From a virus, in the IMG/VR virus record IMGVR_UViG_3300043411_000467, positions 1 to 25,717 of that record: a stretch of DNA of 25,717 nt. One strand, written 5' to 3'. The position numbers and the translations under genes were made by a program. The notes beneath the pieces were generated by a model, which worked only from the letters and a program-made list of their open reading frames with translations, made no database searches and was not told the origin of the DNA. This document shows positions 8,352 through 23,469 of this stretch, one piece after another (position 1 is the first letter of the stretch; each line of letters opens with the position of its first letter).

Positions 8352-8672
8352 ATGAAATCTAAATCACGAGCTTTAATACAAAAAATAATTTCTGAAGAGC
8401 TATCAAGTTCAGGAATATCTGCTGCTAGAGATTCAATCGCAGCTTCTCGCCAACCTCAACCTGAAAAAACCGATCTATCTAAAGTAAAAGTTAAAGTGTT
8501 TTTTAACAAACTTCAAAAGAATGAAGGATTAATGCAATACTTAGATTTTAGGAATCCCGTTGAACAGGCTGAAGCAATTATTAAATTTGCATCGTTAGTG
8601 GGAGTGCCCACCGGTAAGATCCCAGCAATTATAGCTAGTTTCCGTCAATTGAATGCGCCCACTAAAAAATAA
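8352..8672 (+). CDS. Small head-associated protein candidate with capsid-targeting-like N-terminus
   Basis: I do not recognise a family for this 106-residue protein. Its first ~20 residues, MKSKSRALIQKIISEELSSS, form an amphipathic helix of the LIxKIIxEEL type that recurs in several neighbours (14818-15063, 16660-17430, 22504-23469). In T4, such a leader targets internal proteins to the prohead and is removed by gp21; here the exact cleavage site is less clear than in the other copies. The remainder is helical and basic, ending in TKK. It is preceded by an AAAGGA Shine-Dalgarno and follows a promoter-like element, so it may begin a transcript that continues toward the terminase. Packaging in the head is inference. 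Confidence 0.7.
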   Translation: MKSKSRALIQKIISEELSSSGISAARDSIAASRQPQPEKTDLSKVKVKVFFNKLQKNEGLMQYLDFRNPVEQAEAIIKFASLVGVPTGKIPAIIASFRQLNAPTKK

Positions 8673-8675
8673 AAT

Positions 8676-9299
8676 ATGAGTAGTAAATTACGAAATATTG
8701 AAGCATTAAATAAAATGCTTGATGGTTCTCATAGAACTCAAACCAGAAAAACGTATTCAGCGGATTTAACGCCTAAGCCGCAAATAATCCGAAATGTAGG
8801 AGATGTTTGGGAAGAAGTGCATCCTATAACCGGAATAGTTACCGTTTGGGAACAGAAGCAAGGTTTCCGTGTAAAAAAATCTGCGGGTTCTGATTCTATA
8901 AATGCGCATCGAGATTTGATGCATTTTCCAAATTGTGAAGAAGATTGCGAGAAAAAAAGAATCGGAGATTTTGGCCATGGTGATAAAATAATGAATCGGA
9001 AGACTGGTAGATGTATTGATTGCCAAGCTAAATTCGAGGGTGCATTAAAATATGCTGGAAAGTTCAATGAATATGCAAAAGAGAAAATGAAGTCGAATGC
9101 GGAATCGTTTTTTAAAGACGCGGACGTTGAGGTTGAAAAAATCGTAGAAACATTTAAAGATGTTAATTATGCCAACGAAGATGGTTCATTGGATAAATAT
9201 GATATGGTTGATCCGGAAGCGTACACCCAACATATATTAGAAGAATATAATAAATTTAAACACCAAATATTGGATTCATTTGATGAGCAGCCTAGTTAA
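8676..9299 (+). CDS. Conserved T4-like phage protein with a zinc-knuckle-like centre, function unknown
   Basis: This 207-residue protein resembles an uncharacterised protein I associate with large T4-like marine phages, recognised from the start (RNIEALNKMLDGSHRTQT) and GDVWEEVHPITG. Near the middle it has NCEEDC followed by CIDC, with nearby histidines (HFPNC, GHGDK), a plausible metal-binding centre. The C-terminal ~90 residues are charged and helical. There is no signal peptide or membrane segment. It starts 3 nt after the preceding stop, and its last 17 nt overlap the next gene, so it belongs to the same operon. A virion or morphogenesis role is inferred only from its position just upstream of terminase; no enzymatic motif is visible. 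Confidence 0.7.
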   Translation: MSSKLRNIEALNKMLDGSHRTQTRKTYSADLTPKPQIIRNVGDVWEEVHPITGIVTVWEQKQGFRVKKSAGSDSINAHRDLMHFPNCEEDCEKKRIGDFGHGDKIMNRKTGRCIDCQAKFEGALKYAGKFNEYAKEKMKSNAESFFKDADVEVEKIVETFKDVNYANEDGSLDKYDMVDPEAYTQHILEEYNKFKHQILDSFDEQPS

Positions 9300-9861
9300 T
9301 TTATACGAAGATATATTACAAGAATCCGAGGAACAGGATTTAAAATTGGCATTCGATGTATTAGCCCGTGATATTGATCAAGCTACTCAAGATGCTGAAG
9401 ACGAAGTACAGGAAGGCGTTACAACTATAATTGGATTAGTTTTATCTGGACCGTTTATAGTAAAAATGTTTGGTAAATTTGTACGGTTCTTAGAAAAGAA
9501 AATTGCTCAAATTAAAAAAGAAGAGCCAACCCAAGCAGGAAATAGAATATTGGCCTTTGCGGATAAATTTCATCATGTAATAATGATCCCATTTCTTAAG
9601 TTGGCAAAATTAATGGTTAAAGAACCTGCTAAACAAAAGAAATTGGCTAATTATATGTTCCACGGAACTATAGGATTATTATTAATTCACGGTGGAATTA
9701 AAATAGCAGCCGCATTGGAATCCGCCACTGTCAATCCTGCGTTGGCAATGGATTTGGCAAAAAATGGAATTAAAAGCACAGAATTAATTTCTGGAATTAA
9801 AGATATAATTAGAGCCAGCATGGTAAAGATTGGTGAAGATGTTGGAGAATTTACAAGTTAA
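9283..9861 (+). CDS. Membrane-associating candidate internal head protein with a cleavable leader
   Basis: The product is 192 residues if the ATG at 9283 is used; a TTG lies directly before it and is less likely. The N-terminus, NLYEDILQE then S15, matches the T4 capsid-targeting peptide ending in (L/I)-x-E before A/G/S, with predicted cleavage after E14. Downstream there are hydrophobic stretches near residues 47-65 (TIIGLVLSGPFIVKMFGKF) and about 124-146 (FHGTIGLLLIHGGIKIAAAL), separated by a basic region. A protein packaged in the head and able to enter a membrane could be ejected with the DNA, but that is inference. It overlaps the end of the previous gene by 17 nt and is followed by a strong AAGGAG site. 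No known family is recognised. Confidence 0.7.
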   Translation: MSSLVNLYEDILQESEEQDLKLAFDVLARDIDQATQDAEDEVQEGVTTIIGLVLSGPFIVKMFGKFVRFLEKKIAQIKKEEPTQAGNRILAFADKFHHVIMIPFLKLAKLMVKEPAKQKKLANYMFHGTIGLLLIHGGIKIAAALESATVNPALAMDLAKNGIKSTELISGIKDIIRASMVKIGEDVGEFTS

Positions 9862-9865
9862 GGAG
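9860..9865 (+). promoter_or_regulatory. Strong Shine-Dalgarno AAGGAG
   Basis: A perfect AAGGAG lies 5 nt before the ATG at 9871 and overlaps the preceding stop codon. It is one of only two full AAGGAG sites I noticed before starts in the window, the other being before the capsid gene. Many other starts here have no recognisable site. Confidence 0.75.
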
Positions 9866-9870
9866 TTATT

Positions 9871-10167
9871 ATGAAAGGTAGTGGCTGGATTGTTATATTA
9901 TTGATAATATGTTTAGCGGGATATGGATTATTCATTTGGCAATATTCCAGGGCAAAAAAGATTGAATCTGAAGCATTAGAAAAAGTAAAAATTGAAGTAG
10001 CAGCAGTAATTTCTCAGCGAGATAGTATTGAAGCTGCGAAGACAATAACATTGGAAGAATTAAAATTAAATCAAAAAAATCTAGCAGCCTTAATTAAGCA
10101 ATTGGAATCAATTAAAAAAGATTCAATTTCGGTTGAGGATGCAAAGAAAAAATTGTGGAGTATATAA
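9871..10167 (+). CDS. Small inner-membrane protein with coiled coil, possible i-spanin-like lysis protein
   Basis: This 98-residue protein has one N-terminal transmembrane helix (about residues 5-24, WIVILLIICLAGYGLFIW). Basic residues follow (YSRAKK), then a charged helical segment up to the C-terminus consistent with a coiled coil. This layout matches an inner-membrane spanin (Rz-like) but is not specific to it. The next gene, one nucleotide downstream, encodes a second small membrane protein with a signal peptide, which strengthens a two-component envelope role. No endolysin or holin is recognised nearby. A strong AAGGAG ribosome site precedes it. The lysis role is a guess from topology and pairing. 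Confidence 0.65.
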   Translation: MKGSGWIVILLIICLAGYGLFIWQYSRAKKIESEALEKVKIEVAAVISQRDSIEAAKTITLEELKLNQKNLAALIKQLESIKKDSISVEDAKKKLWSI

Positions 10168-10168
10168 G

Positions 10169-10555
10169 ATGAAACTACTAGTATTTATTTTACTAATTAT
10201 TCCTGCAATTAGTTTTACACAAATTCAAGATACTACTTGCTTTACTAATACCCAAGTGCAACGCATCGCGATGACAATGGATTCTTTAAATAAAACGGTT
10301 GAAAAGCAAATTGAAATTATAGACGAGCAAACTACTGTAATTAAAATGCAGGAAACTGTAAATGTTCAAAGTGAAATGCTATTAAAGATGCGAGCCAATG
10401 AAGTTGAATTATTAAATGGCGCATTGGACCATGCATTAGGATTGAATACTAAAATAACAATGAAAGAAAAATGGTACGATAGTAAATATATGTACTATAT
10501 CTACGGAGCACTTACCATATATGGAGGTGCATTGGTAGTAAGTCTGGTGAGGTAA
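10169..10555 (+). CDS. Exported coiled-coil protein with C-terminal membrane anchor, possible spanin partner
   Basis: The product is 128 residues from the ATG at 10169. An upstream ATG at 10133 in the same frame lies inside the previous gene and would bury the signal peptide, so it is rejected. Residues 1-17 (MKLLVFILLIIPAISFT) form a classical signal peptide. The middle, about 30-95, is a Q/E/M-rich coiled coil. The C-terminus (YYIYGALTIYGGALVVSLV) is a transmembrane helix. Exported with a C-terminal anchor resembles a unimolecular spanin layout, but there is no lipobox cysteine at the expected place; the cysteine in DTTCF lies too far in. It is probably co-translated with the gene before it. 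Lysis function is not proven by sequence. Confidence 0.65.
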   Translation: MKLLVFILLIIPAISFTQIQDTTCFTNTQVQRIAMTMDSLNKTVEKQIEIIDEQTTVIKMQETVNVQSEMLLKMRANEVELLNGALDHALGLNTKITMKEKWYDSKYMYYIYGALTIYGGALVVSLVR

Positions 10556-10558
10556 TTA

Positions 10559-12148
10559 ATGGCGACTACCGACTTACGGGAAATAATAAAAGAAGAATAT
10601 AAACGGTCCGCAGTAGATCCTGCCTATTGTTTAAAAAAATACGGTGTAATTCAACACCCTATCAAAGGTAAAGTTAAATTCAATCTTTACCCATTCCAAG
10701 AAATAACATTAGCTAATTTTATAAAGCATAGATTCAATATAATATTGAAATCTAGGCAGATGGGGATATCAACCTTAGTTGCGGCGTACGCACTTTGGAA
10801 AATGATGTTTAATCCAGATTATAATGTATTAGTAATTGCCACGACCCAAAACGTAGCAAAAAACCTTGTACAAAAGGTTAGGTTAATGCACAGTAAATTG
10901 CCTACGTGGATGCGCGGGCAAGTTATTGAAGATAATAAAATGGCATTAACTTTAAAGAACGGCTCAACTATTAAAGCCGTTTCCGCAGCAACCACAGCTG
11001 GTAGATCGGAAGCATTATCCTTATTAATTATCGACGAAGCAGCATTCATTGAGAAATTCGAAGAAATTTGGACTTCTGCACAAATGACATTGGCTACTGG
11101 TGGAGATGCAATATTATTATCCACTCCGAATGGTGTCGGTAATCTATTCCATCAAATATGGGTTAAAGCCCAATCCGAAGAAACTATAGAAGGGTTGGAT
11201 AAATTTAATCCCATCCAATTAAAATGGGATTTACACCCAGAGAGGGATATTGTTTGGAGGCAGCAACAAGATGAAATTCTAGGACCAAGGCAGGCTGCTC
11301 AGGAATGCGACACTGACTTTTTAAGTTCGGGTGCTACAGTTATCGAACCGCAAATATTAAATTGGTATGATAATGATTCTGGGTATATTAAAGATCCTAT
11401 CGAAAAGCGAGGACCTGGCGGAGATTTATGGATATGGCAGTATCCTGATTATAATAAAACCTATGTATCAATTGTGGATACTTCCCGCGGCGATGGTTCG
11501 GATTATAGTACAATTAATATCTGGGACGTAGAACGGGTAGAACAAGTAGCAGAATACAAAGGTAAATTAACTCCAACAGATTTAGGAATAATGGCAGTTA
11601 ATATATCCAGCGAATATAATAATGCATTATTAGTAATTGAAAATACTGGTATAGGAATGGCAACGGTTCAAGTTGCATTAGATAAACATTATAAAAATCT
11701 ATTTTATTCATACCGGAACGATCCATTTTTGGATGATAATATCCAATTAAAAAAGATGCATGATTTAAAATTAAAAGAGGATATGATTCCTGGGTTTACA
11801 AATTCACATAAATCCAGACCAATTGTAATATCCAAAATTGAAACATATATTAGTAATAAAGATGTAATTATTAGATCGAAGAGAACCATGCAGGAATTAT
11901 GGACGTTCCTGTGGATTAATGGTAGAGCTGAATCCCAACGCGGATATAATGATGATTTAGTATTCCCGATAGGTATAATGCTATATGTAAGAGATATCGC
12001 GTTAAAACTAAAACAAATGGGTATTGAAATAACAAAAATGGCCATATCAAAAACTTTCAAGTCCGTTTATGTACCGAAGAGATCAGGAGCCGATCAATGG
12101 CGAATGCAAGTTGGTAATAAGAGCGAGGATTTGAAGTGGCTTTTATAA
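10559..12148 (+). CDS. terL: Terminase large subunit (gp17-like packaging motor)
   Basis: This 529-residue protein is the ATP-driven DNA packaging motor and headful nuclease that docks on the portal. The ATPase domain has Walker A SRQMGIST at 65-72, Walker B LLIIDEAAF with D159/E160, and a coupling motif ILLSTPNGVGN. The nuclease domain is RNase-H-like, with D307 (IVDTSRGDGSD), E361 (LLVIENTGIG) and D465/D466 (GYNDDLV) as metal ligands. It is a little shorter than T4 gp17 (about 610), mainly at the ends. The portal gene follows after 19 nt, whereas T4 has gp18 and gp19 in between. No small terminase subunit was recognised in the window. A GAGGT ribosome site precedes the start. Family assignment is very secure. 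Confidence 0.97.
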   Translation: MATTDLREIIKEEYKRSAVDPAYCLKKYGVIQHPIKGKVKFNLYPFQEITLANFIKHRFNIILKSRQMGISTLVAAYALWKMMFNPDYNVLVIATTQNVAKNLVQKVRLMHSKLPTWMRGQVIEDNKMALTLKNGSTIKAVSAATTAGRSEALSLLIIDEAAFIEKFEEIWTSAQMTLATGGDAILLSTPNGVGNLFHQIWVKAQSEETIEGLDKFNPIQLKWDLHPERDIVWRQQQDEILGPRQAAQECDTDFLSSGATVIEPQILNWYDNDSGYIKDPIEKRGPGGDLWIWQYPDYNKTYVSIVDTSRGDGSDYSTINIWDVERVEQVAEYKGKLTPTDLGIMAVNISSEYNNALLVIENTGIGMATVQVALDKHYKNLFYSYRNDPFLDDNIQLKKMHDLKLKEDMIPGFTNSHKSRPIVISKIETYISNKDVIIRSKRTMQELWTFLWINGRAESQRGYNDDLVFPIGIMLYVRDIALKLKQMGIEITKMAISKTFKSVYVPKRSGADQWRMQVGNKSEDLKWLL

Positions 12149-12167
12149 TTATTAGTAAAATATATTT

Positions 12168-13973: not shown

Positions 13974-13993
13974 TATATATATTATATACAAAG
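13971..13993 (+). promoter_or_regulatory. Candidate late promoter (variant) with downstream AAAGGA
   Basis: The 32-nt gap before the gene at 14006 holds TAATATATATATTATATAC followed by AAAGGA. It resembles the AATTATATATAT elements before 8352, 18940 and 24567, though the core differs by one or two bases. It begins at the portal stop codon. Confidence 0.4.
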
Positions 13994-14005
13994 GACTCGA
14001 TCCAC

Positions 14006-14821
14006 ATGAAATTAAAACATAGTAAATATAAAAATACCGGATTAATTTTCGATATATTATCTAGAAAGATGGTATCCGAGGTTTTATCCGGAGAAGGAAA
14101 CGTGAGCGCCAACATTGTTAAAAAACACTTTAACGCTAAAAGTGAACTTCGAAAAGAATTGAAACTATATCACACATTAATCAATGAAACTGCGCGAACT
14201 CCACAGTTTGCTGATAGATTGATTGAAATTGTTTTGGACATTCGTAAGAAATTAAATGGTAAGAAACTCAATGAAGAAAAATACAAATTAATATCTGAAA
14301 TTAAAAAGTATTATAATTTTGAAGATTTCTTTGCATCTCGGGCAACTAAATATAAAGAGTCTGCCTCAGTATATAAATTATTCGAATCTACACCATCCCA
14401 GGCCCCGTCAGATTATTTACAATGTAGAGAAACCTTAATTGAAAGTATAACCAAAACTGATATAGAAACTCCAGTAGATTTATGGGCAGGAGAAGATTCA
14501 ATAACTAAAAAATTGGCATTTAAATTAATCGTTGAAAAATTCAACGAAAGATACAAAGGATTAAATACCAAACAAAAAGAGTTATTATCCAAATATATCA
14601 ATACCGATATAGAATCAGATGATTTCAAAACGTATGTAATAACGGAAGTATTAGATGTAACCAAAAAATTACAACGTAAAAATATCCAAGATCCAACATT
14701 AAAAATCAAGATAAATGAAATCTGCAATCTATCCGAAAAAATGATTGCGAGTAAATTCGTTAAAGAAGAGCATTTATCATCACTTTTAAAATTTTATCAA
14801 TTGCAGGATGTACTTAAATGA
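14006..14821 (+). CDS. Conserved T4-like head-module protein, function unknown
   Basis: This 271-residue protein starts MKLKHSKYKNTGLIFDILSR, a signature I associate with an uncharacterised protein found between portal and protease in large marine T4-like phages. It is helical and lysine-rich with no membrane segment, signal peptide or enzymatic motif. A possible gp21-type site, KLFE before S, lies near residue 128. In T4 this interval encodes the small core proteins gp67 and gp68, but this protein is longer and not evidently homologous. It is preceded by a promoter-like element and an AAAGGA site, and its stop overlaps the next ATG as ATGA. A role in head assembly is inferred from position. 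Confidence 0.75.
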   Translation: MKLKHSKYKNTGLIFDILSRKMVSEVLSGEGNVSANIVKKHFNAKSELRKELKLYHTLINETARTPQFADRLIEIVLDIRKKLNGKKLNEEKYKLISEIKKYYNFEDFFASRATKYKESASVYKLFESTPSQAPSDYLQCRETLIESITKTDIETPVDLWAGEDSITKKLAFKLIVEKFNERYKGLNTKQKELLSKYINTDIESDDFKTYVITEVLDVTKKLQRKNIQDPTLKIKINEICNLSEKMIASKFVKEEHLSSLLKFYQLQDVLK

Positions 14822-15063
14822 AGCAACAAACTAATCAATTATTAAGAAAAATAATTCGTGAAGAATTAAAGAAAGTAAATGAAGGTTCCAGCGATTTCGT
14901 CGCAAAATACGATTCGACGAATATCATTATTAAACACGGGTATAAATCTTATAGTGATGACGAATTAGGTATAATATACGAAGCATATGGTAAAGTTATG
15001 TCTAACCTAAGACGTACAGAAAACTATAGTATAGCACCTACAAAAATTACAATAGAATTTTAA
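14818..15063 (+). CDS. Small candidate internal head protein with capsid-targeting-like leader
   Basis: This 81-residue protein begins with an amphipathic leader, LLRKIIREELKKVNE at residues 8-22, followed by G23. This is close to the gp21 cleavage rule (L/I)-x-E before A/G/S, with V in place of L/I. The mature part of about 59 residues is mixed alpha/beta (FVAKYDSTNIIIKHGYKS) and belongs to no family I can name. It is coupled to genes on both sides: ATGA with the preceding stop and TAATG with the next start. The leader resembles those at 8352, 16660 (internal) and 22504 (internal). Packaging into the prohead followed by cleavage is inferred. Confidence 0.72.
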   Translation: MKQQTNQLLRKIIREELKKVNEGSSDFVAKYDSTNIIIKHGYKSYSDDELGIIYEAYGKVMSNLRRTENYSIAPTKITIEF

Positions 15064-15323
15064 TGCAAAAACTCTTAGAACAATTATCTCAACAATTCAA
15101 TCTTGAAGAAGATGAAGAACTCATTGATGAAATGAGTGACACCGGATGTTTAGACGGAGGAGAAGGTCCACCAAGAACACCTAATATGTTCCAAAAAAAA
15201 CCAAAGAGTAAAAGAGATAACGAAATTGATAATGCCAAAGAAGATAGTGTACCATTTTCAAAATGGGAAGAAACTGATAAATGGTTTATTAAGATAGAAA
15301 GTATATTGAAGAAGTTTAATTAA
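15063..15323 (+). CDS. Small acidic head-module protein, unknown
   Basis: This 86-residue protein is hydrophilic. It has an acidic N-terminal half (FNLEEDEELIDEMSDTG), a central glycine/proline-rich turn (GGEGPPRTPNMF) followed by a basic patch (KKPKSKR), and a helical end. The DEMS-TG-G-P-x-TP pattern is reminiscent of an uncharacterised protein next to the prohead protease in related phages, but I cannot name a family. It is coupled on both sides by TAATG overlaps, upstream to the 81-residue leader protein and downstream to a GIY-YIG endonuclease. Without the endonuclease it would lie directly before the prohead protease, so a scaffold or core role is plausible but unproven. Confidence 0.65.
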   Translation: MQKLLEQLSQQFNLEEDEELIDEMSDTGCLDGGEGPPRTPNMFQKKPKSKRDNEIDNAKEDSVPFSKWEETDKWFIKIESILKKFN

Positions 15324-16033
15324 TGTCAAAACAGTATAAAATATATAAAGTAGTAAATACATTGAATAATAAAATTTACGTAGGTAAGACAGTTAGAACA
15401 GGAACTGAATATGATAAATATTTTGGGTCGGGTATATTAATTAAAAATGCTATTAATAAACATGGGCTTGACAACTTTACTAAAGAATTGATTGAAGAAT
15501 GTACTGATGCGGATCATATGAATGACCGAGAAAAATATTGGATATCAACATTGAATACGATTACACCGAACGGATATAATATACATTATGGGGGAGAAGG
15601 TGGGGATTCTTTTTACTATATGACTACCGAACAAAAAGATAAAATCTTTGAAAAAAGAATAGCGAATAACCCAGATATGTATACAAAAATATGGGAATCA
15701 CGCAGACGAAACGGTACTGATACTTATTCGGGACAAGCTTTATTAAATATAACTCTTGCAAATAGAGCTAAGGCTCGTGATCCTATAGTTTTAAAAAAAA
15801 TAAGCGATTATCAATTAATGTGCAGTTCGACTATTAAGAAATATCATATACAAATTTTACCAACAAATGAAATTGTAGAATTGATTGGAATTGGATCTGT
15901 TAAACAATATGTGATGGAATATAATATATCTAACAATAAAAAATATAGAGAACGATCAAATTACTGGAAATTATTATATGGCGGGTCAACCAATGATATG
16001 ATACTTCTTAAAAAACCGAGGGTGAATGTATGA
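15323..16033 (+). CDS. GIY-YIG homing endonuclease (Seg-like)
   Basis: This 236-residue protein is a free-standing homing endonuclease of the GIY-YIG family, like T4 Seg enzymes. The catalytic domain covers about residues 5-90: KIY (6-8) and YVG (19-21) form the GIY-YIG core. KYFGSG and the segment KHGLDNFTKELIEEC follow, then NDREKYWI, in which E70 is the expected metal ligand. The C-terminal ~140 residues are basic, fitting a DNA-binding part, with no clean NUMOD repeat visible. It is inserted with TAATG at its start and ATGA at its end, between a small head gene and the prohead protease, so the operon's translational coupling is kept. Insertion next to an essential gene is typical of such elements. 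Confidence 0.9.
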   Translation: MSKQYKIYKVVNTLNNKIYVGKTVRTGTEYDKYFGSGILIKNAINKHGLDNFTKELIEECTDADHMNDREKYWISTLNTITPNGYNIHYGGEGGDSFYYMTTEQKDKIFEKRIANNPDMYTKIWESRRRNGTDTYSGQALLNITLANRAKARDPIVLKKISDYQLMCSSTIKKYHIQILPTNEIVELIGIGSVKQYVMEYNISNNKKYRERSNYWKLLYGGSTNDMILLKKPRVNV

Positions 16034-16650
16034 ATAAACAATTATTAGTTGAATGTATACCCTTTAATTATAGTAGTGTTGCTATTACTGAAAATATTAA
16101 TACAACGGGTCGATTGATAGTTTCGGGTGTTTTGCAACGGGCCAATGTTCGCAACCAGAATTTACGAATCTATCCAAAACACATACTAGAACGTGAAATA
16201 ACAAGATACACACAAAATGAAATAAGCCAACGAAGAGCCCTTGGAGAATTAGACCATCCCGAATCATCCGTGGTGAATCTACGTAATGTATCTCATAACA
16301 TATTAGAAACATGGTGGGATGGAGATGATCTATGTGGTAAAATCGAAGTGTTAAATACTCCAGCTGGAAATATACTAAAAGAATTATTTAAAGCAGGTAT
16401 TACATTAGGTATTAGTTCAAGAGGAATGGGTAGTGTAAAAACATTACATGAAGATAACGGAGAAGACACAGTAGAAGTTCAAAATGATTTTGAAATTGTA
16501 TGTTGGGATTTCGTTAGTAATCCATCAACTCATGGCGCATTTATGAAGCCAGTAAATGAATCCGTACAAAGGGAAAATAATACGATAACGGAAGCCAATG
16601 AATTAATTAACGGGATTATCTGTGAATTATCCGGCGTGTGCTGCTTATAA
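16030..16650 (+). CDS. 21: Prohead core protease (gp21-like)
   Basis: This 206-residue serine protease would mature the prohead by cutting the scaffold, capsid and internal proteins after (L/I)-x-E. Catalytic landmarks are H76 in GELDHPESS and S129/S130 in LGISSRGMGS, matching the herpesvirus-assemblin/gp21 fold; VLQRANVRNQNLRIYP is also typical of the family. The C-terminal tail contains TITE188 before A189, a self-cleavage site consistent with autoprocessing as in T4 gp21. Its length is close to T4 gp21 (212). The start overlaps the stop of the GIY-YIG endonuclease gene. Its presence supports reading (L/I)-x-E sites in neighbouring proteins as real maturation sites. Confidence 0.94.
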   Translation: MNKQLLVECIPFNYSSVAITENINTTGRLIVSGVLQRANVRNQNLRIYPKHILEREITRYTQNEISQRRALGELDHPESSVVNLRNVSHNILETWWDGDDLCGKIEVLNTPAGNILKELFKAGITLGISSRGMGSVKTLHEDNGEDTVEVQNDFEIVCWDFVSNPSTHGAFMKPVNESVQRENNTITEANELINGIICELSGVCCL

Positions 16651-16659: not shown

Positions 16660-17430
16660 ATGGAAAAATACGAAACAATAAATAATAAACAAGCCAAAAG
16701 CCTTTTAAAAAAAATGGCTACTAAATATGGTGAGACTTCTAATATATATTTAGAGATAGAAGATTGCGTAGAACAATTTACATTGTCCGATGATACTATG
16801 AATTGGCCTAGTAGATCCGTAGTAATATTAAACAAGACATTAGAAAAATGTAGGGTACTAGAAGAAATGAAAAAACAATCATTAGCAGAACAAAAATTGC
16901 GAAGACTTATTCGTAATGAAATTAAAAGAATAGTTGAAGCGCCCAATTTCGATGACATGAGTTCCGGGATGCAGCGCAGAAGATCGGCAACCGACGCTGT
17001 GAATAACGCAAAAGGCGGAGAAGTTATAAATACGCCAAAAGGTGACTTTCAGGCGGTAAAATCTATTAAATCAATAGAATTAAAACCAGGCGATGTATTT
17101 TTAAGTACATATAATCAATTCAACCAAGGAGCTGAAATACATGAGTTTGTGGGAATTACTGACGATTCTACTAAATACGGAGAACAATTTGAAAAGCAGA
17201 AAAAGGTAACATTTAAAACTGTTAAAGATTGTTTGCGTCATTATAAAGTATCCTCGTTGAAAGCTTTAGAAGAATTGCAAAGGAAAAATGAATATGGTTA
17301 CCAATCATATATGTGTGTTAAAGATTTAATAGACGGAGATTCGGGCGCCTGGTTCTATATATATCAAGGTAAATGGTGCCGCGGTTCTGGTGCAGAAAAA
17401 TTATCATTCACATTGCTAAAACGTGTATAA
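16660..17430 (+). CDS. Two-part head-associated protein with an internal capsid-targeting-like peptide
   Basis: No family is recognised for this 256-residue protein. Residues 1-75 form a helical domain (KQAKSLLKKMATKYGE and on). Residues 80-94, LRRLIRNEIKRIVEA, match the leader seen at the N-terminus of neighbours, with a consensus gp21 site IVE93 before A94. The C-terminal ~160 residues are mixed, including GDVFLSTYNQF, HEFVGITDD, YQSYMCVKDLIDG and WFYIYQGKWC, and look like a compact beta-containing domain. Cleavage would yield two products of about 93 and 163 residues. It lies 9 nt after the protease gene with an AAAAGG site. Whether the arrangement is a fusion of two genes or a true processed precursor cannot be decided here. 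Confidence 0.65.
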   Translation: MEKYETINNKQAKSLLKKMATKYGETSNIYLEIEDCVEQFTLSDDTMNWPSRSVVILNKTLEKCRVLEEMKKQSLAEQKLRRLIRNEIKRIVEAPNFDDMSSGMQRRRSATDAVNNAKGGEVINTPKGDFQAVKSIKSIELKPGDVFLSTYNQFNQGAEIHEFVGITDDSTKYGEQFEKQKKVTFKTVKDCLRHYKVSSLKALEELQRKNEYGYQSYMCVKDLIDGDSGAWFYIYQGKWCRGSGAEKLSFTLLKRV

Positions 17431-17433: not shown

Positions 17434-17808
17434 ATGAAAACAAAATCAATGATAAAATTACTAGAAGGATTTGGCGATGACCAAGTTAAATTTTCTAAAG
17501 ATGAAAGAAAAGCATTCTTAGAGAATATAAGAAACTTTAGTAGATATAGCGAATCTATCTATCGTTCTGCTAAACTTGCTGAAATTGCCGAAGAGATTGG
17601 ACAAACTATTAAAGTTGCCCAACAAATGAATTTACAAGAAACCGATGGTTGGTTTGATAATGTAACGGTAAGTCGCCATAATAAAAGAATGGAAGAGGCT
17701 TATAAAACATTCCAAAATTCAGCCAAGGAAGTATCCGTTCTCCAACAAAGAATGGAATCCGCGTATGAAGACATAGCAGAAACATTGAAAAAATATTACG
17801 ACGTATAG
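17434..17808 (+). CDS. Conserved T4-like head-module protein with cleavable leader
   Basis: This 124-residue helical protein resembles an uncharacterised protein found close to the protease and capsid genes in large T4-like aquatic phages. Recognisable stretches are FSRYSESIYRSAKLAEIAEE, QETDGWFDNVTVSRH and LQQRMESAYEDIAETL. Its first residues, MKTKSMIKLLE then G12, give a very short targeting leader with a consensus gp21 site after E11. It begins 3 nt after the preceding stop with no clear Shine-Dalgarno. No enzymatic motif is visible. A structural or internal head role is likely from position and leader, but its function is unknown. Confidence 0.75.
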   Translation: MKTKSMIKLLEGFGDDQVKFSKDERKAFLENIRNFSRYSESIYRSAKLAEIAEEIGQTIKVAQQMNLQETDGWFDNVTVSRHNKRMEEAYKTFQNSAKEVSVLQQRMESAYEDIAETLKKYYDV

Positions 17809-17818
17809 AATATTAAAC

Positions 17819-18058
17819 ATGAATAAAAAGTTTCAAAAAAGAATAGATTCGATAATACCCGGACAAAGCACCGCGGTACGAGTAGTAGATAATGATATAT
17901 CTTATGCTCTAAGGTTATTTAAAAAAGAAGTTAAAGACTCGAATAAATTAAAAGAGTATTATTCCAGAAAAGAATTTACAAAGCCAAGTATTATACGCCG
18001 GGAACAATTAGCCCTGGCAAGATATAAAAATACCAAGGGATTGATGAATGAAAATTAA
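17819..18058 (+). CDS. rpsU: Phage-encoded ribosomal protein bS21
   Basis: This 79-residue protein resembles bacterial 30S subunit protein bS21. After a short lead, VRVVDNDISYALRLFKKEV, KEYYSRKEFTKPSIIRR and EQLALARYK follow the bS21 order: a VxVxxNxxxxxALRxFKR-type helix, an RRREFYEKP-type helix and turn, and a basic C-terminal helix. bS21 binds near the anti-Shine-Dalgarno end of 16S rRNA, and viral copies are known from aquatic phages. The gene sits in the late head region, 10 nt after the previous stop and with no clear Shine-Dalgarno of its own. It overlaps the next gene by 11 nt. A role in reprogramming host ribosomes for late phage mRNAs is inference. Confidence 0.82.
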   Translation: MNKKFQKRIDSIIPGQSTAVRVVDNDISYALRLFKKEVKDSNKLKEYYSRKEFTKPSIIRREQLALARYKNTKGLMNEN

Positions 18059-18575
18059 ATTAACAGACATACTAAAATCTAAACTATTAACTGAAGCAAA
18101 GATCAAATATGGTCTTAAATCAGTAAGTGGTGGATTTAATGATGGAGTAGATATTGTTCCCGGTAAAAATATATCCGCAGGAAAAATACTCATCAATGTA
18201 ACTCTATATGGTGGAGGTAGTAAAGATTGGCATGCTTTTCCTGCTCCATCCCAAGTACAAGAATATATTAATGCTTGGCAAGAAGCCCAAACCACAGGAG
18301 ATCCAATATCAAATGATATCGAGGTTAATATAGAAGCATACTATAGTCTAATTAAAAAAGAAATTGGCATTAATCTAATTAAGGCATTACAAGAGTTTGA
18401 CCAAAAAGCATCCCAGATAATTAAATCATCTGTGGCAGCAGTAAATCGTAGATATGCTCCGGAAGAACAACCCGAGGAAGAACAACCGCGCGCGGAACCA
18501 AAACCTAAACCACAAGTACAAGCTCCTCAACAACAAAGAAGACCAGTAGATCCAAGAAAACAACAAGGTGTATAA
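18048..18575 (+). CDS. Candidate internal head protein with leader and proline/glutamine-rich tail
   Basis: This 175-residue protein begins KLTDILKSKLLTE then A17, a clear capsid-targeting-like helix ending in a consensus gp21 site after E16. The central part, about 17-135, is an unrecognised mixed domain (GLKSVSGGFNDGVDIVPGKN, then KILINVTLYGGGSKDW). The last ~45 residues are low-complexity and rich in P, E, Q and R (EEQPEEEQPRAEPKPKPQVQ), probably disordered. It overlaps the bS21 gene by 11 nt and is followed directly by another leader-bearing small gene. Delivery inside the head with the DNA is plausible from the leader; the biochemical function is unknown. Confidence 0.72.
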   Translation: MKIKLTDILKSKLLTEAKIKYGLKSVSGGFNDGVDIVPGKNISAGKILINVTLYGGGSKDWHAFPAPSQVQEYINAWQEAQTTGDPISNDIEVNIEAYYSLIKKEIGINLIKALQEFDQKASQIIKSSVAAVNRRYAPEEQPEEEQPRAEPKPKPQVQAPQQQRRPVDPRKQQGV

Positions 18576-18576
18576 G

Positions 18577-18816
18577 ATGAAGAAATTAAGACTTAGCGAT
18601 ACTATTAAGAAAGATTTGAATGAAGTTGATTATGGCGGTAATAAAAATGAACTGGATAATCGTTTATTTGTAGCTCTTAATGACCTAGCACAGCTGTGTT
18701 CATATTTAGGAGACGCTCAGAAAAAAATTAGTAATAAAGAAGTAAATAAATTTAGAAACGAACTTCGGCAAAGATATAAGCGAGTCGACGAGTACATTGA
18801 AAAATACGCAAAATAA
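18577..18816 (+). CDS. Small helical candidate head protein with leader-like N-terminus
   Basis: The product is 79 residues from the ATG at 18577; a GTG three codons earlier lies inside the previous gene and is less likely. The start, KKLRLSDTIKKDLNE then V17, resembles the targeting leaders of neighbours, but V at P1' does not fit the A/G/S rule, so cleavage is uncertain. The rest is charged and helical (RLFVALNDLAQLCSYLGDAQ, then KFRNELRQRYKRVDEYIEKY). It is the last gene before the 123-nt leader of the scaffold/capsid unit. No family is recognised. Confidence 0.65.
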   Translation: MKKLRLSDTIKKDLNEVDYGGNKNELDNRLFVALNDLAQLCSYLGDAQKKISNKEVNKFRNELRQRYKRVDEYIEKYAK

Positions 18817-18832
18817 TGGTTTTCTATTTTTG

Positions 18833-18855
18833 AATTATATATATTTGTATAATAC
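18833..18855 (+). promoter_or_regulatory. Candidate late promoter of the scaffold-capsid unit
   Basis: The 123-nt gap between 18816 and 18940 opens with AATTATATATATTTGTATAA, sharing its 12-nt core with the elements before 8352 and 24567. With the terminator at 21530-21560 it would define a separate transcript for scaffold and capsid protein, the most heavily needed products. Confidence 0.55.
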
Positions 18856-18873
18856 TAGATCTCAATATCTAGT
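18854..18873 (+). other. Leader hairpin 1 of the scaffold-capsid transcript
   Basis: ACTAGAT (18854-18860) is an exact inverted repeat of ATCTAGT (18867-18873) with a 6-nt loop. It lies immediately downstream of the candidate promoter, so it would be near the 5' end of the mRNA. It may stabilise the transcript or act as a binding site. There is no T-tract, so it is not a terminator. Confidence 0.5.
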
Positions 18874-18898
18874 CAATAATGTTTATCTAACAACATAT

Positions 18899-18920
18899 TA
18901 AGAATTCCCCAATATTCTTA
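18899..18920 (+). other. Leader hairpin 2 of the scaffold-capsid transcript
   Basis: TAAGAAT (18899-18905) is an exact inverted repeat of ATTCTTA (18914-18920) with an 8-nt loop containing TCCCC. It ends 19 nt before the scaffold start codon, just before the GATAAGGAAAAG ribosome-binding region. Its position could influence ribosome loading. Confidence 0.45.
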
Positions 18921-18939
18921 CGATAAGGAAAAGTAATCA

Positions 18940-19824
18940 ATGAATGATTTACTAAAAGACGCAATTGCAGATGCAAAGGCAGTACGAGACACTGCATACG
19001 CAAGCGCAAAGGCAACATTAGAAGAAGCGTTCCAGCCAACTATTCAACGGATGATTTCATCTAAGTTAGCTGAAGAAGAAGGTGACGAAGAAGAATTCGA
19101 AACAGAACCAGAAATGGAAGCACCTGCCCCCGAGGCAGAAGCACCAGTAGCAGAACCAGAAATGGAAGCACCTGCACCAGAACCTGAATACGAAGAAGAG
19201 GAAGATTTAGAGCTTGAAGCTTTAATTCGCGAATTGGAAATGGAAGATGAGGATGAATTTATGGCAGAAGGTGATTACATGGACGACGGCGAAGAAGCTG
19301 TACCAGCTGAAATGGGCGATTCTTTAGACGAAAATGATGATTTAGATTTGGAATTGGAATCATTAATTCGCGAATTAGAAGGTGAAGATGAATTTGAAGC
19401 TGAACCTGAAATGGAAGACGAACCAGTTATGGAACGCAGACGTGTTTCTCGAACAATCCAAAATGAAAACAAACAGTTAAAGAAAAAGTTAAATGAAGCA
19501 TATACTGCTATTTCTACTTTGAAAACTGCCATTGCGGATGTAAATTTATTAAATGCAAAATTAATGTATTGCACTAAAGTATTACGCGGATCTAATTTAT
19601 CAGAAGAAGCGCAAACTAAAGTGTTGAAGCAATTTGATCGAGCATCTAATATTAGAGAAGTGAAATTGATTTATACTACATTAGTTGAGTCTATTAAGAA
19701 AAAAGCAACCGTGTCAAAAAGAATTACCGAAGGTGCGTCAAAACGACAAGTTGCAATTACTAATAAATCCAACGAATTTAGTTTTGCACCACGATGGCAG
19801 CACATCGCGGGTATTAAGAAATAA
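18940..19824 (+). CDS. 22: Prohead scaffolding core protein (gp22-like)
   Basis: This 294-residue protein would form the internal scaffold on which the capsid shell assembles and which is later degraded by the protease. Residues 1-45 are helical (LLKDAIADAKAVRDTAYASA). Residues about 48-170 are extremely acidic with repeated E-P-A and ELE/EDE blocks. The C-terminal part from about 170 has the conserved gp22-type helix NENKQLKKKLNEAYTAISTL and LLNAKLMYCTKVLRGSNLSE. Protease-type sites are visible at LEE29 before A30 and at RITE before G near the C-terminus. It is directly followed by the capsid gene, as in T4. A promoter-like element and two hairpins lie in its leader. Confidence 0.9.
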   Translation: MNDLLKDAIADAKAVRDTAYASAKATLEEAFQPTIQRMISSKLAEEEGDEEEFETEPEMEAPAPEAEAPVAEPEMEAPAPEPEYEEEEDLELEALIRELEMEDEDEFMAEGDYMDDGEEAVPAEMGDSLDENDDLDLELESLIRELEGEDEFEAEPEMEDEPVMERRRVSRTIQNENKQLKKKLNEAYTAISTLKTAIADVNLLNAKLMYCTKVLRGSNLSEEAQTKVLKQFDRASNIREVKLIYTTLVESIKKKATVSKRITEGASKRQVAITNKSNEFSFAPRWQHIAGIKK

Positions 19825-19829
19825 CAAAC

Positions 19830-19835
19830 AAGGAG
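19830..19835 (+). promoter_or_regulatory. Strong Shine-Dalgarno AAGGAG of the capsid gene
   Basis: A perfect AAGGAG lies 4 nt before the capsid ATG at 19840. It contrasts with the weak or absent sites before several other genes, consistent with high capsid expression. Confidence 0.75.
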
Positions 19836-19839
19836 TAAA

Positions 19840-21501
19840 ATGAATATTCAAGATTTACTGCCTAAAGATTACCAAACACATCGTAAAAGGGAAATTCTAG
19901 CTCTTACTTCTAAATGGAGAAAGACTGGATTACTTGAGGGTCTAGACGGTCCTGATGCGGGTAATATGGCACAATTGCTTGAGAACCAAGCAAGACAATT
20001 AGTAACTGAAGCCAATAGAACTGGTGCAGAAACTAATTCAGAAGAATGGGCAGGTATTGCACTTCCATTAGTGCGAAGAGTATTTGCGGATATATCTTCA
20101 AAAGAATTTGTATCGGTTCAACCGATGAATTTACCAAGTGGACTAGTATTCTTCCTAGACTTTAAGTATGGAACAGGACAACCTGGATTTAATACTGCAG
20201 CTGGTAAGAATTCGCAGAATGACTCGTTATTTGGTATAACTGACTCTAACAAAGGTACTACAACTAATCCTTATGGTGACACAACTCCATGGGAAGGTTT
20301 ATATGGACCAGGTAGATTCGGATATACAATTAACGATTATAGTTCATCTGCAACTACAAGAGGTGCTACATTAAGTACATCTAACTTTACTACAGGTTCT
20401 GTAGCTGCTACTGATTATAACTTTAATAGTTTATTCAGCGGATCTATCGTTGCTGTTGGATCTAGATTGAAAAAAATCACTGTATCGCAATCAAGATTTT
20501 CTAACCCAGATTTAAAATCAGTTAGAGCTTGGACTATTACGAATAGCACAGGTACGTTGGTTTATGATATGTATCCAGAATTTACTAAGTATAACACTAC
20601 TGCGAAGACAGTAACATTTATTGTTTCATCTTCAATTGGTGGTGCTACGGATGCATTGAAATTTAATTACCACAAACAACCAACCGATATTACTAGAGGT
20701 GACTTTGAAGAAGGTCGTACTCAAAGTGGTGCAGGTACGGAAGCGTTGGATATTCCAGAAATCAATCTTGAATTCCGTTCGGAAGAAATTGTTGCTAAGA
20801 CGCGTAAGCTGAAAGCAAAATGGACACCAGAATTTGCGCAAGATATTAACGCATACCAAAACATTGATGCGGAAGCGGAATTAACATCTATTTTAGGTGA
20901 ATATATTTCTCAGGAAATTGACCTTGAAATATTAGATATGTTAATCCACGATGCACAAACAATTGAATATTGGGATGCGAGATTAGGATTCGAATTTAAT
21001 GGTACAAATGCATTCAATCAAACTTCTGCGAACGCAGCGGCTTACAACCAAGGAACATGGTTCCAAACGTTGGGAACAAAAATGCAAAAAGTATCGAACC
21101 GAATTCACACTAAAACATTACGAGGTGGTGCTAACTTCTGCGTAGTTTCTCCAACGGTTGCAACAATCCTAGAATCTATTCCTGGATATGCTGCTGACAC
21201 AGATGGCGACAAAATGAAGTTTGCAATGGGTGTTCAAAAGGTTGGATCACTTAATAGCAGATTCCAAGTTTATAAGAATCCTTATATGACTGAGAACTGC
21301 ATATTGATGGGATTCCGAGGAAGTCAGTATTTGGAAACAGGTGCGGTGTACGCGCCATATATTCCATTAATGATGACACCACTTGTATTAGACCCTGATA
21401 ACTTCACACCAAGAAAAGGTGTGATGACCAGGTACGCGAAGAAGATGTTAAGACCTGAATTTTATGGTAAGATTTATGTGAATTCATTGAATACACTTTA
21501 A
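19840..21501 (+). CDS. 23: Major capsid protein (gp23-like)
   Basis: This 553-residue protein is the main HK97-fold shell protein. The N-terminus parallels T4 gp23: SKWRKTGLLEGLDG resembles the T4 KWKPLLEGEG segment, and QLVTE57 before A58 is the expected gp21 processing site (T4 cuts after E65). The mature part has IALPLVRRVFADISSKEFVS, VQPMNLPSGLVFFLDFKYG, RKLKAKWTPEFAQDI and LILDMLIH-type gp23 segments. The C-terminal region contains MLRPEFYGKIYVNSLNTL. An insertion around residues 150-290 is rich in S, T and G. Length is close to T4 gp23 (521). It has the strongest ribosome-binding site of the region and is followed by an intrinsic terminator. Assignment is very secure. Confidence 0.97.
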   Translation: MNIQDLLPKDYQTHRKREILALTSKWRKTGLLEGLDGPDAGNMAQLLENQARQLVTEANRTGAETNSEEWAGIALPLVRRVFADISSKEFVSVQPMNLPSGLVFFLDFKYGTGQPGFNTAAGKNSQNDSLFGITDSNKGTTTNPYGDTTPWEGLYGPGRFGYTINDYSSSATTRGATLSTSNFTTGSVAATDYNFNSLFSGSIVAVGSRLKKITVSQSRFSNPDLKSVRAWTITNSTGTLVYDMYPEFTKYNTTAKTVTFIVSSSIGGATDALKFNYHKQPTDITRGDFEEGRTQSGAGTEALDIPEINLEFRSEEIVAKTRKLKAKWTPEFAQDINAYQNIDAEAELTSILGEYISQEIDLEILDMLIHDAQTIEYWDARLGFEFNGTNAFNQTSANAAAYNQGTWFQTLGTKMQKVSNRIHTKTLRGGANFCVVSPTVATILESIPGYAADTDGDKMKFAMGVQKVGSLNSRFQVYKNPYMTENCILMGFRGSQYLETGAVYAPYIPLMMTPLVLDPDNFTPRKGVMTRYAKKMLRPEFYGKIYVNSLNTL

Positions 21502-21529
21502 TCTTTAGGTATTGATTAATTTTAATAAG

Positions 21530-21560
21530 AGCCGGGGACGAATAATCCTCGGCTTTTTTT
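21530..21560 (+). terminator. Rho-independent terminator after the capsid gene
   Basis: AGCCGGGGA (21530-21538) pairs with TCCTCGGCT (21546-21554), a 9-bp GC-rich stem with one G-T wobble and a 7-nt loop, followed by a T-tract to 21560. It lies 28 nt after the capsid stop. It is the only convincing intrinsic terminator in the window. Confidence 0.92.
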
Positions 21561-21572
21561 ATGTTATTCCCG

Positions 21573-21598
21573 GATTATTTATATTTATATTAAAAAGG
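21573..21598 (+). promoter_or_regulatory. AT-rich promoter-like element after the capsid terminator
   Basis: The gap between the terminator and the gene at 21605 contains ATTATTTATATTTATATTAA followed by AAAGG. It is a weaker relative of the AATTATATATAT elements. Because the terminator should stop upstream transcription, a new promoter is expected here. Confidence 0.4.
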
Positions 21599-21604
21599 AA
21601 TTCT

Positions 21605-21841
21605 ATGCCATCATCTTCGGATAAACAAAGGCGGTTATTCAGTGTAGTTAAATCGGTACAATCCGGTGAGGCAGATCCTGAAACCGTTTCCGATAAAGTT
21701 AAACAATTAGCAAAGAAATTGGATAAACAAACAGTTGACGATTTTGCTAAGTCAGAAGAAAGATCCCAACCATACAAAACCGAATCATTACGTAGAGTAT
21801 CTGGAATGTTAAGAGAAATCAATAAAAAAAAATATGGATAA
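21605..21841 (+). CDS. Small conserved phage protein (DUF3008-like), unknown function
   Basis: The product is 78 residues from the ATG at 21605, which has an AAAAAGGAA site. A longer frame opening at 21512 would run through the capsid terminator and is rejected. The start MPSSSDKQRRLFSVVKS and the motif QTVDDFAKSEE follow the layout of short phage proteins of the DUF3008 type: S-x-K-Q-R at the start, a linker, and an E/D-DFA near the end. The family's function is not known to me; it is basic and may bind nucleic acid or virion components. It overlaps the PhoH-like gene by 8 nt and is probably the first gene of the transcript after the terminator. Confidence 0.7.
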   Translation: MPSSSDKQRRLFSVVKSVQSGEADPETVSDKVKQLAKKLDKQTVDDFAKSEERSQPYKTESLRRVSGMLREINKKKYG

Positions 21842-22496
21842 TACTAATACAAAAAGACAACCAAAGTCCGATATTAAATTTTCAATCACATTATCAGAGG
21901 AACAAAAAAGAGCAAAAGAACAAATATTAACACACGCATTCAATTTTATTGAAGGGAAAGTTGGTAGTGGTAAAACATTAGTTGCTTGCCAAATTGCATT
22001 GGATTTATTTTTTAAACGAGATGCTCAGAAAATAGTAATTACCAGGCCAACTGTAGGAACAGAAGATAATGGATTTTTACCTGGAACATTTGAAGAGAAG
22101 ATGGAACCTTGGATGGTTCCAATTCGAGATAATATGCGGAAGGTATATAACTATCCAGAAAAGCTGGATAAGCATTTTAAAAATAATGATATCGAATTAG
22201 TATCATTATCCCACTTCCGCGGTAGAACATTTGAGAATGCAGTTTGTATTATAGATGAATTTCAAAACCTAACCAAACAGCAATTAGCAATGGCATTGGG
22301 TAGATTGGGAAAAGGAAGTATTATGATATTCTGCGGTGACAGTAAGCAAATAGATTTAAAACAAGCTAACGATTCCGCAGTACATGATGTAGCAAAATTA
22401 GAAAGTAGCAGATTCGTTTATCGTGTTAAATTAATGGAAAATCATAGACACGAAGCAGTAGACGATGTATTGAATTTATTATACAATTATCATTAA
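21834..22496 (+). CDS. phoH: PhoH-like P-loop ATPase
   Basis: This 220-residue protein is a PhoH-family ATPase, common in aquatic phages and related to the helicase-like PhoH core. It has Walker A GKVGSGKT at 41-48, the characteristic KIVITRPTVGTEDNGFLPGT segment, SLSHFRGRTFENAVCIIDEF with Walker B D141/E142, and IMIFCGDSKQIDL. The cellular role of phage PhoH is unsettled; proposals include phosphate stress response and RNA processing, and none can be chosen from sequence. The protein is compact, lacking the KH or PIN extensions of some bacterial relatives. It overlaps the previous gene by 8 nt and precedes an unknown leader-bearing gene by 7 nt. Confidence 0.94.
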   Translation: MDNTNTKRQPKSDIKFSITLSEEQKRAKEQILTHAFNFIEGKVGSGKTLVACQIALDLFFKRDAQKIVITRPTVGTEDNGFLPGTFEEKMEPWMVPIRDNMRKVYNYPEKLDKHFKNNDIELVSLSHFRGRTFENAVCIIDEFQNLTKQQLAMALGRLGKGSIMIFCGDSKQIDLKQANDSAVHDVAKLESSRFVYRVKLMENHRHEAVDDVLNLLYNYH

Positions 22497-22503
22497 GGAA
22501 TTT

Positions 22504-23469
22504 ATGCCATTAAAACCAAACAGACAAATAGGCAAACGATCTAGAAAAGAAGATGTATTAGATGCCAAAAAGAATCGCACCTGGATAACTCCTAAAGGTA
22601 AGAAGTACGAATTTGATTATGAGAAGCAAGGAAGTAGATATATATTTATATTAATCTACAAAGATAATAGAATGAGAGTTCCCGAATCTGATTGGAACCG
22701 AACTGATATAGATGATTTAATAAATTCAATGGAAAAAGGTATGGCAATAGAAAATAAAAAATCAAATCGACTACGACAAATAATTAAAGAAGAAATTCGA
22801 CACGTAATGAATGAAACTGAATTGACACCTGGAAGTTGGGCATCGGACTCCCAGATAGACGAATATATATTAGCTAATGGTGGCACAGATGACGATATAG
22901 AAGACTGGAGAAATTTGACAGACTATGGGGATATACAATCGGCCCGGGTTGAATATGTTTCTGATGCCAACGAATTTTTAAAAAAATATAATTTAAGAGT
23001 TTCGGGAGTCCGGGAAACTAAAGATGGCAATGAGTTAGAATGGAAAATATATAAAAAAACCGACCCGATTGGTAATTATGATTTTGAGAAAATACAAAAG
23101 TTAGCTAATAAATTAGGTTTCACACAAGGTGTTATTGATATCAAGACTAAGAGAATTAATCCTGGGACGGATAAACCTAAAAAAAATCAACATGCTACAG
23201 TGATACCGTTTTCATTAAAAGATGAAATGACTTGGGTAACCGGTGGATTGCGTCATATAGGTAAAAAAATACAAGTATCTAGAACAGAAGCAAAAAAAGT
23301 ATGGGATTCGAACGAAGTTAAATTTAAAAAATTCCATAAAGCATTGCAACAACTAGTTGGTAACGATAATGTATCCATTCGGTGGTATGTAAAAAATTCC
23401 AATTTTGGTGGACCTGTATCTGGTCTTGGGGTAAATTTAGCCCCAACTGTAATATTCAAATTTAAATAA
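22504..23469 (+). CDS. Two-part unknown protein with internal capsid-targeting-like peptide
   Basis: No family is recognised for this 321-residue protein. Residues 1-85 form a basic domain (NRTWITPKGKKYEFDYEKQG, RYIFILIYKDNRMRVP). Residues 90-105, LRQIIKEEIRHVMNE then T105, closely match the targeting leaders of neighbouring genes, although T after E does not fit the strict A/G/S rule. The C-terminal ~215 residues contain NEFLKKYNLRVSGVRET, a lysine-rich central part, and an ending GGPVSGLGVNLAPTVIFKF. A separate start at the ATG at 22741 or 22807 cannot be excluded. It is preceded by AAGGAATTT. Its internal leader makes it the third protein here with the pattern domain, leader, domain. Confidence 0.62.
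   Translation: MPLKPNRQIGKRSRKEDVLDAKKNRTWITPKGKKYEFDYEKQGSRYIFILIYKDNRMRVPESDWNRTDIDDLINSMEKGMAIENKKSNRLRQIIKEEIRHVMNETELTPGSWASDSQIDEYILANGGTDDDIEDWRNLTDYGDIQSARVEYVSDANEFLKKYNLRVSGVRETKDGNELEWKIYKKTDPIGNYDFEKIQKLANKLGFTQGVIDIKTKRINPGTDKPKKNQHATVIPFSLKDEMTWVTGGLRHIGKKIQVSRTEAKKVWDSNEVKFKKFHKALQQLVGNDNVSIRWYVKNSNFGGPVSGLGVNLAPTVIFKFK

Follow-up and report, generated by a model that had tools for sequence, protein, structure and literature searches.

Putative gp21-cut capsid-targeting leaders on many small proteins of a T4-like virus genome fragment and its relatives

We analyzed the small genes of IMG/VR record IMGVR_UViG_3300043411_000467, a virus genome fragment whose complete 25.7 kb record (25,717 nucleotides) is hereafter called the window, following an original prediction that several of them share a capsid-targeting peptide. 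In bacteriophage T4, proteins are brought into the prohead core by a capsid-targeting sequence (CTS) that is removed by the protease gp21, and the internal proteins (IPs) enter the host (PMC9026906, PMC12373910). Comparative evidence strongly supports a leader of this type, with sequences that fit cutting by gp21, on many small proteins of the window and its relatives. Our preferred explanation, to which we assign a probability of roughly 0.78, is a T4-type capsid-targeting and gp21-cleavage system that is much enlarged and of which the window carries a part. This reading is supported by the enrichment of sites in one genomic interval, the transfer of a leader profile to known T4 substrates, the phage specificity of the leader, and domain boundaries that fall exactly at the proposed cut in polyproteins. 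We strongly infer from the sequences that the leader proteins are targeted to the head and cleaved; by analogy with T4, they may also be injected and act as effectors in the host.

The window contains genes of gp46-, gp17-, gp20-, gp21-, gp22-, gp23-, and PhoH-type and belongs to a far T4-like myovirus. Among annotated isolates, the closest to it are Microcystis phage Mel-JY01 (protease 51%, capsid 57% identity) and Flavobacterium phage immuto (protease 53%, capsid 56% identity), and a megablast search of the window against phage records returned no match. We therefore worked with 80 fetched relatives whose proteases are 59-70% identical to that of the window, and with an interval set of 31 contigs, including the window, Mel-JY01, and immuto, that carry both protease and scaffold. 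The gene order gp17-gp20-p14006-gp21-[interval]-gp22-gp23 is common to these 31 contigs, as far as each contig reaches. The interval between gp21 and gp22 ranges from 0.4 to 8.5 kb and holds 1-24 open reading frames (ORFs); the corresponding gap in T4 is ~30 bp.

Sites were defined as [LI]xE at residues 7-26, with a P1' residue other than E, K, R, or P, and redundancy was removed. Such a site is present in 57/119 interval ORFs (48%) versus 106/556 controls (19%; Fisher P = 3e-10), while at later positions of the same proteins the frequency is 12-21% in both groups. The position of P1 peaks at residue 10 (15.1% vs 2.0%) and rises a second time at residues 17-22, and two leader shapes are plain in the relatives, MIKLKDLLNE↓ and MKLTKSKLKEMIREELLNE↓ (↓ marks the proposed cut). 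The long form heads seven genes of contig G003, and a variant heads eight of G004, in both cases on unrelated bodies. Predicted cut sites in the two isolates include MIKLIDLLTE↓S at 24569, LLLE↓E at 109856, and LLRE↓A at 112261 of immuto (NC_055915), and ILGE↓S at 52405 and LLQE↓I at 60276 of Mel-JY01. Copies within one genome carry many synonymous differences while the residues are kept, so selection acts on the peptide. In the window alone, three of the five genes between protease and scaffold have the site, against 19% of controls; the evidence beyond chance is thus modest from the window and decisive with the relatives.

A leader profile of 15 positions was trained on interval ORFs of the relatives, with the window and T4 excluded. 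Applied to the 280 ORFs of T4, it ranked gp24 at 3, Alt at 5, IPIII at 9, IPII at 10, and gp22 at 14, all of them gp21 substrates. Outside the interval, 68/1145 real N-termini reached a score of 9 versus 15/1427 pseudo-starts (P = 1e-12), and 23 real N-termini versus 0 pseudo-starts reached 14. Mutagenesis of the T4 leader had assigned residues 4 and 7 to targeting and residues 8 and 10 to processing (PMC9026906), and we formulated a CTS register rule for a 10-residue leader as hydrophobic residues 4 and 7, L/I at 8, and E10. The rule is satisfied by 14/119 interval ORFs, 6/556 controls, 25/1236 ORFs outside the interval, and 0/1792 internal-Met pseudo-starts. In T4 it selects 4/280 ORFs, namely IPII, IPIII, gp24, and gp61.1, three of which are known substrates.

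The fourth of these, gp61.1 (L109:18966-19130; MKTFKEFIKE↓D), also ranks 1 of 280 by profile. It is a candidate T4 internal protein, judged from its N-terminus, and does not appear in the literature lists of internal proteins covered here.

The short leader appears to be a phage sequence. We searched with a degenerate DNA pattern that encodes MIKLKDLL[NK]E and also admits F for some L. It matched at least 120 viral contig stretches, against three in the genomes of 84,980 prokaryote species (257 Gb). One of these three lies at an ORF start, on a contig binned as Flavobacteriaceae that has five leader genes and probably comes from a virus. At most 10 open codons precede the motif in 107 of the 124 matches listed, which marks it as a true N-terminus, and the bodies behind it fall into ~38 unrelated families among the matches listed. 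Of the 120 listed loci reached by this leader-first search, 64 contain T4-type head genes and 39 contain gp21, with a median locus of 7.8 kb.

Domains found alone behind a leader recur, in relatives, inside longer proteins. A cut at the glutamate predicts that the mature domain starts directly after it wherever the domain occurs. The junctions of L180 read KESVNE↓A where standalone relatives have KLKDLLNE↓G or MIKLKDLFNE↓A, and a zeta-like kinase lies behind VLE↓GV in L054 and behind LLAE↓GV in its standalone form. With a strict query set, (L/I/V/M/F)xE falls exactly at the boundary in 21/63 distinct junctions versus 2.7% expected (P = 1e-17), and within two residues of it in 37/63 versus 13%. 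This test replaced a first, less strict one that truncated terminase ORFs had contaminated. A linker word, ES[VLI][NTSDR]E, occurs about fifteen times as often in interval proteins as in controls. Several effector domains share one polypeptide in L180, L022, L012, and L054; the window has only the two-part genes 16660 and 22504 (genes are named by their first coordinate), which, from their sequences, may be two-part versions of this architecture.

A small basic module between capsid and phoH in the window (21605-21838; MPSSSDKQRRLFSVVKSVQSGE...) forms, in relatives, the N-terminus of long polyproteins directly after the protease.

In the window, the following putative leaders and leader-like segments were found:
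14818..14883, + strand: long leader MKQQTNQLLRKIIREELKKVNE22↓G, gene 14818-15063 (profile score 11.3)
15063..15131, + strand: N-terminal stretch ending LIDE23↓M, gene 15063-15323 (profile score 7.3)
16897..16938, + strand: internal leader-like segment LRRLIRNEIKRIVE93↓A, gene 16660-17430 (read from the sequence)
17434..17466, + strand: short leader MKTKSMIKLLE11↓G, gene 17434-17808 (profile score 7.5; kept in all aligned homologues)
18048..18095, + strand: leader MKIKLTDILKSKLLTE16↓A, gene 18048-18575 (profile score 7.0)
18577..18624, + strand: leader MKKLRLSDTIKKDLNE16↓V, gene 18577-18816 (profile score 4.3)
8352..8396, + strand: leader-like N-terminus MKSKSRALIQKIISE15↓E with a poor P1', gene 8352-8672 (profile score 6.1)
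9283..9324, + strand: weak leader MSSLVNLYEDILQE14↓S, gene 9283-9861 with ATG at 9283 (profile score -0.1)
22771..22815, + strand: internal long-leader segment LRQIIKEEIRHVMNE104↓T, gene 22504-23469 (11.9 bits with a hidden Markov model of the long leader)

The sites named in the original prediction (LQE14↓S, VNE22↓G, LLE11↓G, LTE16↓A, and LNE16↓V) all lie at the residues it gave. Its list was incomplete, since it missed 15063 and the internal segments in 16660 and 22504. It had also described the leaders as short amphipathic helices, which is clear for 14818 and 18577 and does not extend to the others (among control N-termini, 18048 would rank at the 16th percentile and 8352 at the 53rd); several leaders being average, we dropped amphipathicity as a criterion. 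For 8352, said to have the helix alone, a helix-like start is present and the only site is ISE15↓E, which is not a clean one. Short N-terminal leaders ending in (L/I)xE are carried by 17434, 18048, and 18577, while 14818 has VxE, and no named window leader fits the exact CTS register. The terminase 10559 starts with TDLREIIKEEY, a leader look-alike, and the terminase of a relative begins in a similar way, so a helix by itself is not diagnostic of a leader.

Homologues that keep the body of a protein while lacking the leader had been proposed as grounds for rejecting the prediction. In the 17434 family, the leader and its site are kept in every member aligned (~30% identity), and most relatives with a gene of this family have it in the protease-scaffold interval. 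The predicted structure of 17434 is a helical hairpin in which a leader helix (residues 6-11) ends at E11 and is followed by a low-confidence linker. The 15063 family has 60 distinct homologues adjoining the protease, and those listed carry [LI]xE followed by a conserved (S/T)TxA segment. The leader class of 14818 heads many unrelated bodies in relatives, and a profile search with gene 16660 gathered leader proteins. In 16660 and 22504 the motif is internal, after an N-terminal stretch of 80-90 residues (~80 in 16660).

The remaining genes are less well connected. A homologue of 18048 in L002 keeps E16, and its structure model places a helix at residues 5-17 with low confidence. Homologues of 8352 also have leaders (LINE↓E in L004, LRE↓A in L003), and a 27% identical Mel-JY01 protein related to 9283 has a leader-like N-terminus; a tblastn search with 9283 against phage records gave no match. 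Gene 18577 starts at an ATG, upstream of which the mechanical ORF begins at GTG 18568, and no homologue of it was found. No relatives of 9283, 18048, or 22504 were found in viral contigs, so these genes evolve fast or are rare. Pfam and PHROG scans of the window's small proteins gave weak, uninformative matches only.

Two further kinds of N-terminus were noticed in relatives. Two immuto proteins, L084:25061-25456 and L082:11675-12139, start with MKKQILSEQF(K/R)RMQ(F/K)LAGIITE↓S, possibly a third leader type. A GK(V/I)YTDxDxPPF segment recurs at the N-terminus of several interval proteins (L022:13714-13989, L061:10016-10141, L042:11386-12174), with a VxE-type site after it in some, and may be another leader class.

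A compatible protease is encoded in the same genome, of the gp21 family (PF03420), together with conserved sites in the structural proteins. The relevant features are:
16030..16650, + strand: gp21-type prohead protease (Peptidase_S77), the proposed processing enzyme (Pfam PF03420, E = 3.5e-33; PHROG 207, head maturation protease, E = 9.7e-55)
16585..16593, + strand: C-terminal protease site ITE188↓A, within TITE188↓A (read from the sequence)
18940..19824, + strand: gp22-type scaffold bounding the variable interval, with an RITE↓G site near its C-terminus (synteny and blastp)
19840..21501, + strand: gp23-type major capsid protein (PHROG 138, E = 9.9e-70)
20002..20010, + strand: capsid maturation site VTE57↓A, within QLVTE57↓A (homologue conservation)
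17819..18058, + strand: bS21-like gene in the interval, without a leader (PHROG 21469, E = 0.0055)

The prediction's substrate sites in capsid, protease, and scaffold were borne out by the sequence. A site of the form [IV]xE↓[ASNT] is present at the same place in 24/24 readable capsid homologues, and [LIV]xE occurs within the last 40 residues of 69/82 protease homologues. The bS21-like gene serves as an internal negative control; its family comprises 25 distinct homologues, and those listed have no leader.

Several observations concern the genes around these features. A bS21-like ribosomal protein gene closely precedes the scaffold gene in many of these phages, and a GIY-YIG homing-endonuclease-like gene is inserted directly upstream of the window's protease (15323-16033). 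A TAG lies within the protease match of two relatives (G010:C1:22221-22829, G013:C1:1716-2321), as a read error, a true stop near the end, or TAG recoding. In L052, a portal ORF of 976 residues and split terminase ORFs suggest inteins or introns. No Rfam families or transfer RNAs were found in the window.

Based on these results, we propose that selected proteins would be made with an N-terminal leader, either short (~10 residues, like MIKLKDLLNE) or long (~17-22 residues, like MKLTKSKLKEIIREEIKKLNE), which would take them into the prohead core. There the gp21-type protease would cut after (L/I/V)xE, and the mature proteins would stay in the head and enter the host with the DNA. The conserved leader proteins 15063 and 17434 would probably be core-assembly parts. 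Candidate cargo would be the fast-changing 18048 and 18577, the C-terminal parts of 16660 and 22504, and perhaps 8352 and 9283. Relatives carry the same tag on predicted enzymes and string putative cargo domains into polyproteins, with a site between domains.

Alternatively, the leaders could be core-assembly signals only, on proteins that bind the scaffold, shape the prohead like T4 gp67/gp68, and are then destroyed or expelled rather than injected. The 15063 and 17434 families are conserved in the lineage and adjoin portal and protease, roughly where T4 has gp67/gp68, and the model of 17434 is a plain helical hairpin. For these two, a role as prohead-core parts is more likely than one as effectors, given their conservation across the lineage beside portal and protease. 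As an account of the leaders in general we consider it unlikely, since the interval varies greatly in size and content, unlike an essential core, and leaders also occur on predicted enzymes.

Chance and composition would produce the pattern if the K- and E-rich proteins of an AT-rich phage often showed LxE near the start and fitting ones had been picked; the site frequency among control ORFs and the terminase look-alike point this way. The interval enrichment, the absence of pseudo-starts in the CTS register, and a phage-specific exact leader on many families refute this for the lineage, leaving it very improbable overall and possible for single weak members such as 9283 and 18577. We hold it equally improbable that the conserved N-terminus reflects a feature of the mRNA or of translation, or DNA that was copied recently, and that the peptide itself has no role: codon identity at identical leader residues (0.66-0.81 vs 0.44-0.55 expected) suggests some shared descent, but synonymous sites vary while leader residues are kept, and the site recurs in polyproteins away from any start codon.

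Several points weigh against an enlarged capsid-targeting system. The profile misses T4 IPI, gp21, and gp68, and it gave gp67 no score because that gene was absent from the ORF calls. Because ~2% of internal-Met pseudo-starts reach leader scores, single leader calls can be wrong, and helix look-alikes occur in terminase and baseplate-type proteins. The window's leaders in 9283, 8352, and 18577 are weak, and at 42/63 polyprotein junctions no site coincides exactly with the boundary. Finally, cargo enzymes with a leader were seen in relatives and none in this window.

Those relatives suggest what the cargo may be. Their predicted enzymes and a SAM-lyase-like domain on leader proteins give indirect support to the original idea of injected take-over or anti-defense effectors. 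Zeta_toxin/AAA_33 kinases with a leader occur in three genomes by Pfam and in G007, L184, and L251 by sequence. Other leader proteins match NUDIX, PolyA_pol with HD (CCA-adding enzyme type), HD_4 (RelA/SpoT type), the NMN-adenylyltransferase type, and zincin-like peptidases; the peptidase matches and those to NT5C nucleotidase are under the Pfam cut-off. A SAM-lyase match is above the cut-off in Mel-JY01 (40.0 bits) and just under it in G001 (27.1 bits, cut-off 28). PHROG labels this region "SAM-dependent methyltransferase" or unknown, and a comparison with solved structures gave no sequence match at useful E-values, so the assignment rests on Pfam. An ADP-ribosyltransferase look in two Mel-JY01 leader proteins found no family support and was set aside. 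The window's NMN-adenylyltransferase-like gene (6527) has no leader while related genes elsewhere do, consistent with gain and loss of the tag.

A broader possibility is a widespread uncultured T4-like branch with general tag-and-cut delivery. Enzymes of many kinds (kinase, NUDIX, SAM lyase, CCA-adding enzyme, ppGpp-hydrolase-like HD) would be loaded by a single peptide code, and cargo-domain polyproteins would be packaged and cut in the prohead by the capsid maturation protease. We hold this tentatively, at slightly less than even odds. The leader system may extend to huge phages, as an uncultured 484 kb phage genome (LR756508.1) has a 17434-family gene and a capsid of 53% identity. Among phage proteins, the injected ones encounter host defenses first, and apart from those of T4 and the giant phages few examples are known. 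A head-loading code that can be read from sequence would turn anonymous genes into ranked candidates for packaged proteins with predicted exact mature N-termini. It points to a possible polyprotein delivery route, marks anti-restriction enzymes such as SAM lyase as candidates for injection, and supplies naturally occurring leaders with which phage heads could be loaded with foreign enzymes. In open PMC texts, we found no description of the long helical leader, the gp21-gp22 cargo island, leader-bearing enzymes such as the CCA-adding enzyme, or polyproteins whose cargo is separated by sites for the prohead protease.

Among known systems, the closest is that of T4 IPI, IPII, IPIII, and Alt, which share with the proteins described here an N-terminal leader of ~10-20 residues, an (L/I)xE site, a Peptidase_S77 protease, and unrelated bodies. 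IP1-3 have only the leader in common, and each blocks different type IV restriction enzymes (PMC9026906, PMC12373910); at least ten non-homologous CTS-tagged internal proteins have been reported in T-even phages (PMC12373910). Unlike in T4, much of the putative cargo lies between gp21 and gp22, in up to ~24 interval ORFs, a second and longer helical leader exists, predicted enzymes bear leaders, and the cargo of relatives is strung together with a site between domains.

The giant phages phiKZ and SPN3US package many head proteins that are processed after a short xxE motif by a gp21 relative and ejected (PMC5694885). The proteins described here resemble those inner-head proteins in having a short xxE motif and a gp21-family protease. 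Several propeptides of phiKZ and SPN3US exceed 100 residues and end in AxE or SxE, whereas the leaders here have 10-22 residues and (L/I/V)xE; only 16660 and 22504 would lose ~93-104 residues.

Polyvalent proteins (Iyer et al. 2017) likewise combine disparate effector domains and are thought to enter the host with the DNA, and their release has been ascribed to peptidase domains embedded in the protein (PMC5512222). One leader protein weakly matches MPTase-PolyVal, and metallopeptidase-like cargo in relatives was seen as separate proteins. Here, by contrast, the junctions match a prohead protease that is a protein of its own, and the same domains are also found standing alone behind leaders.

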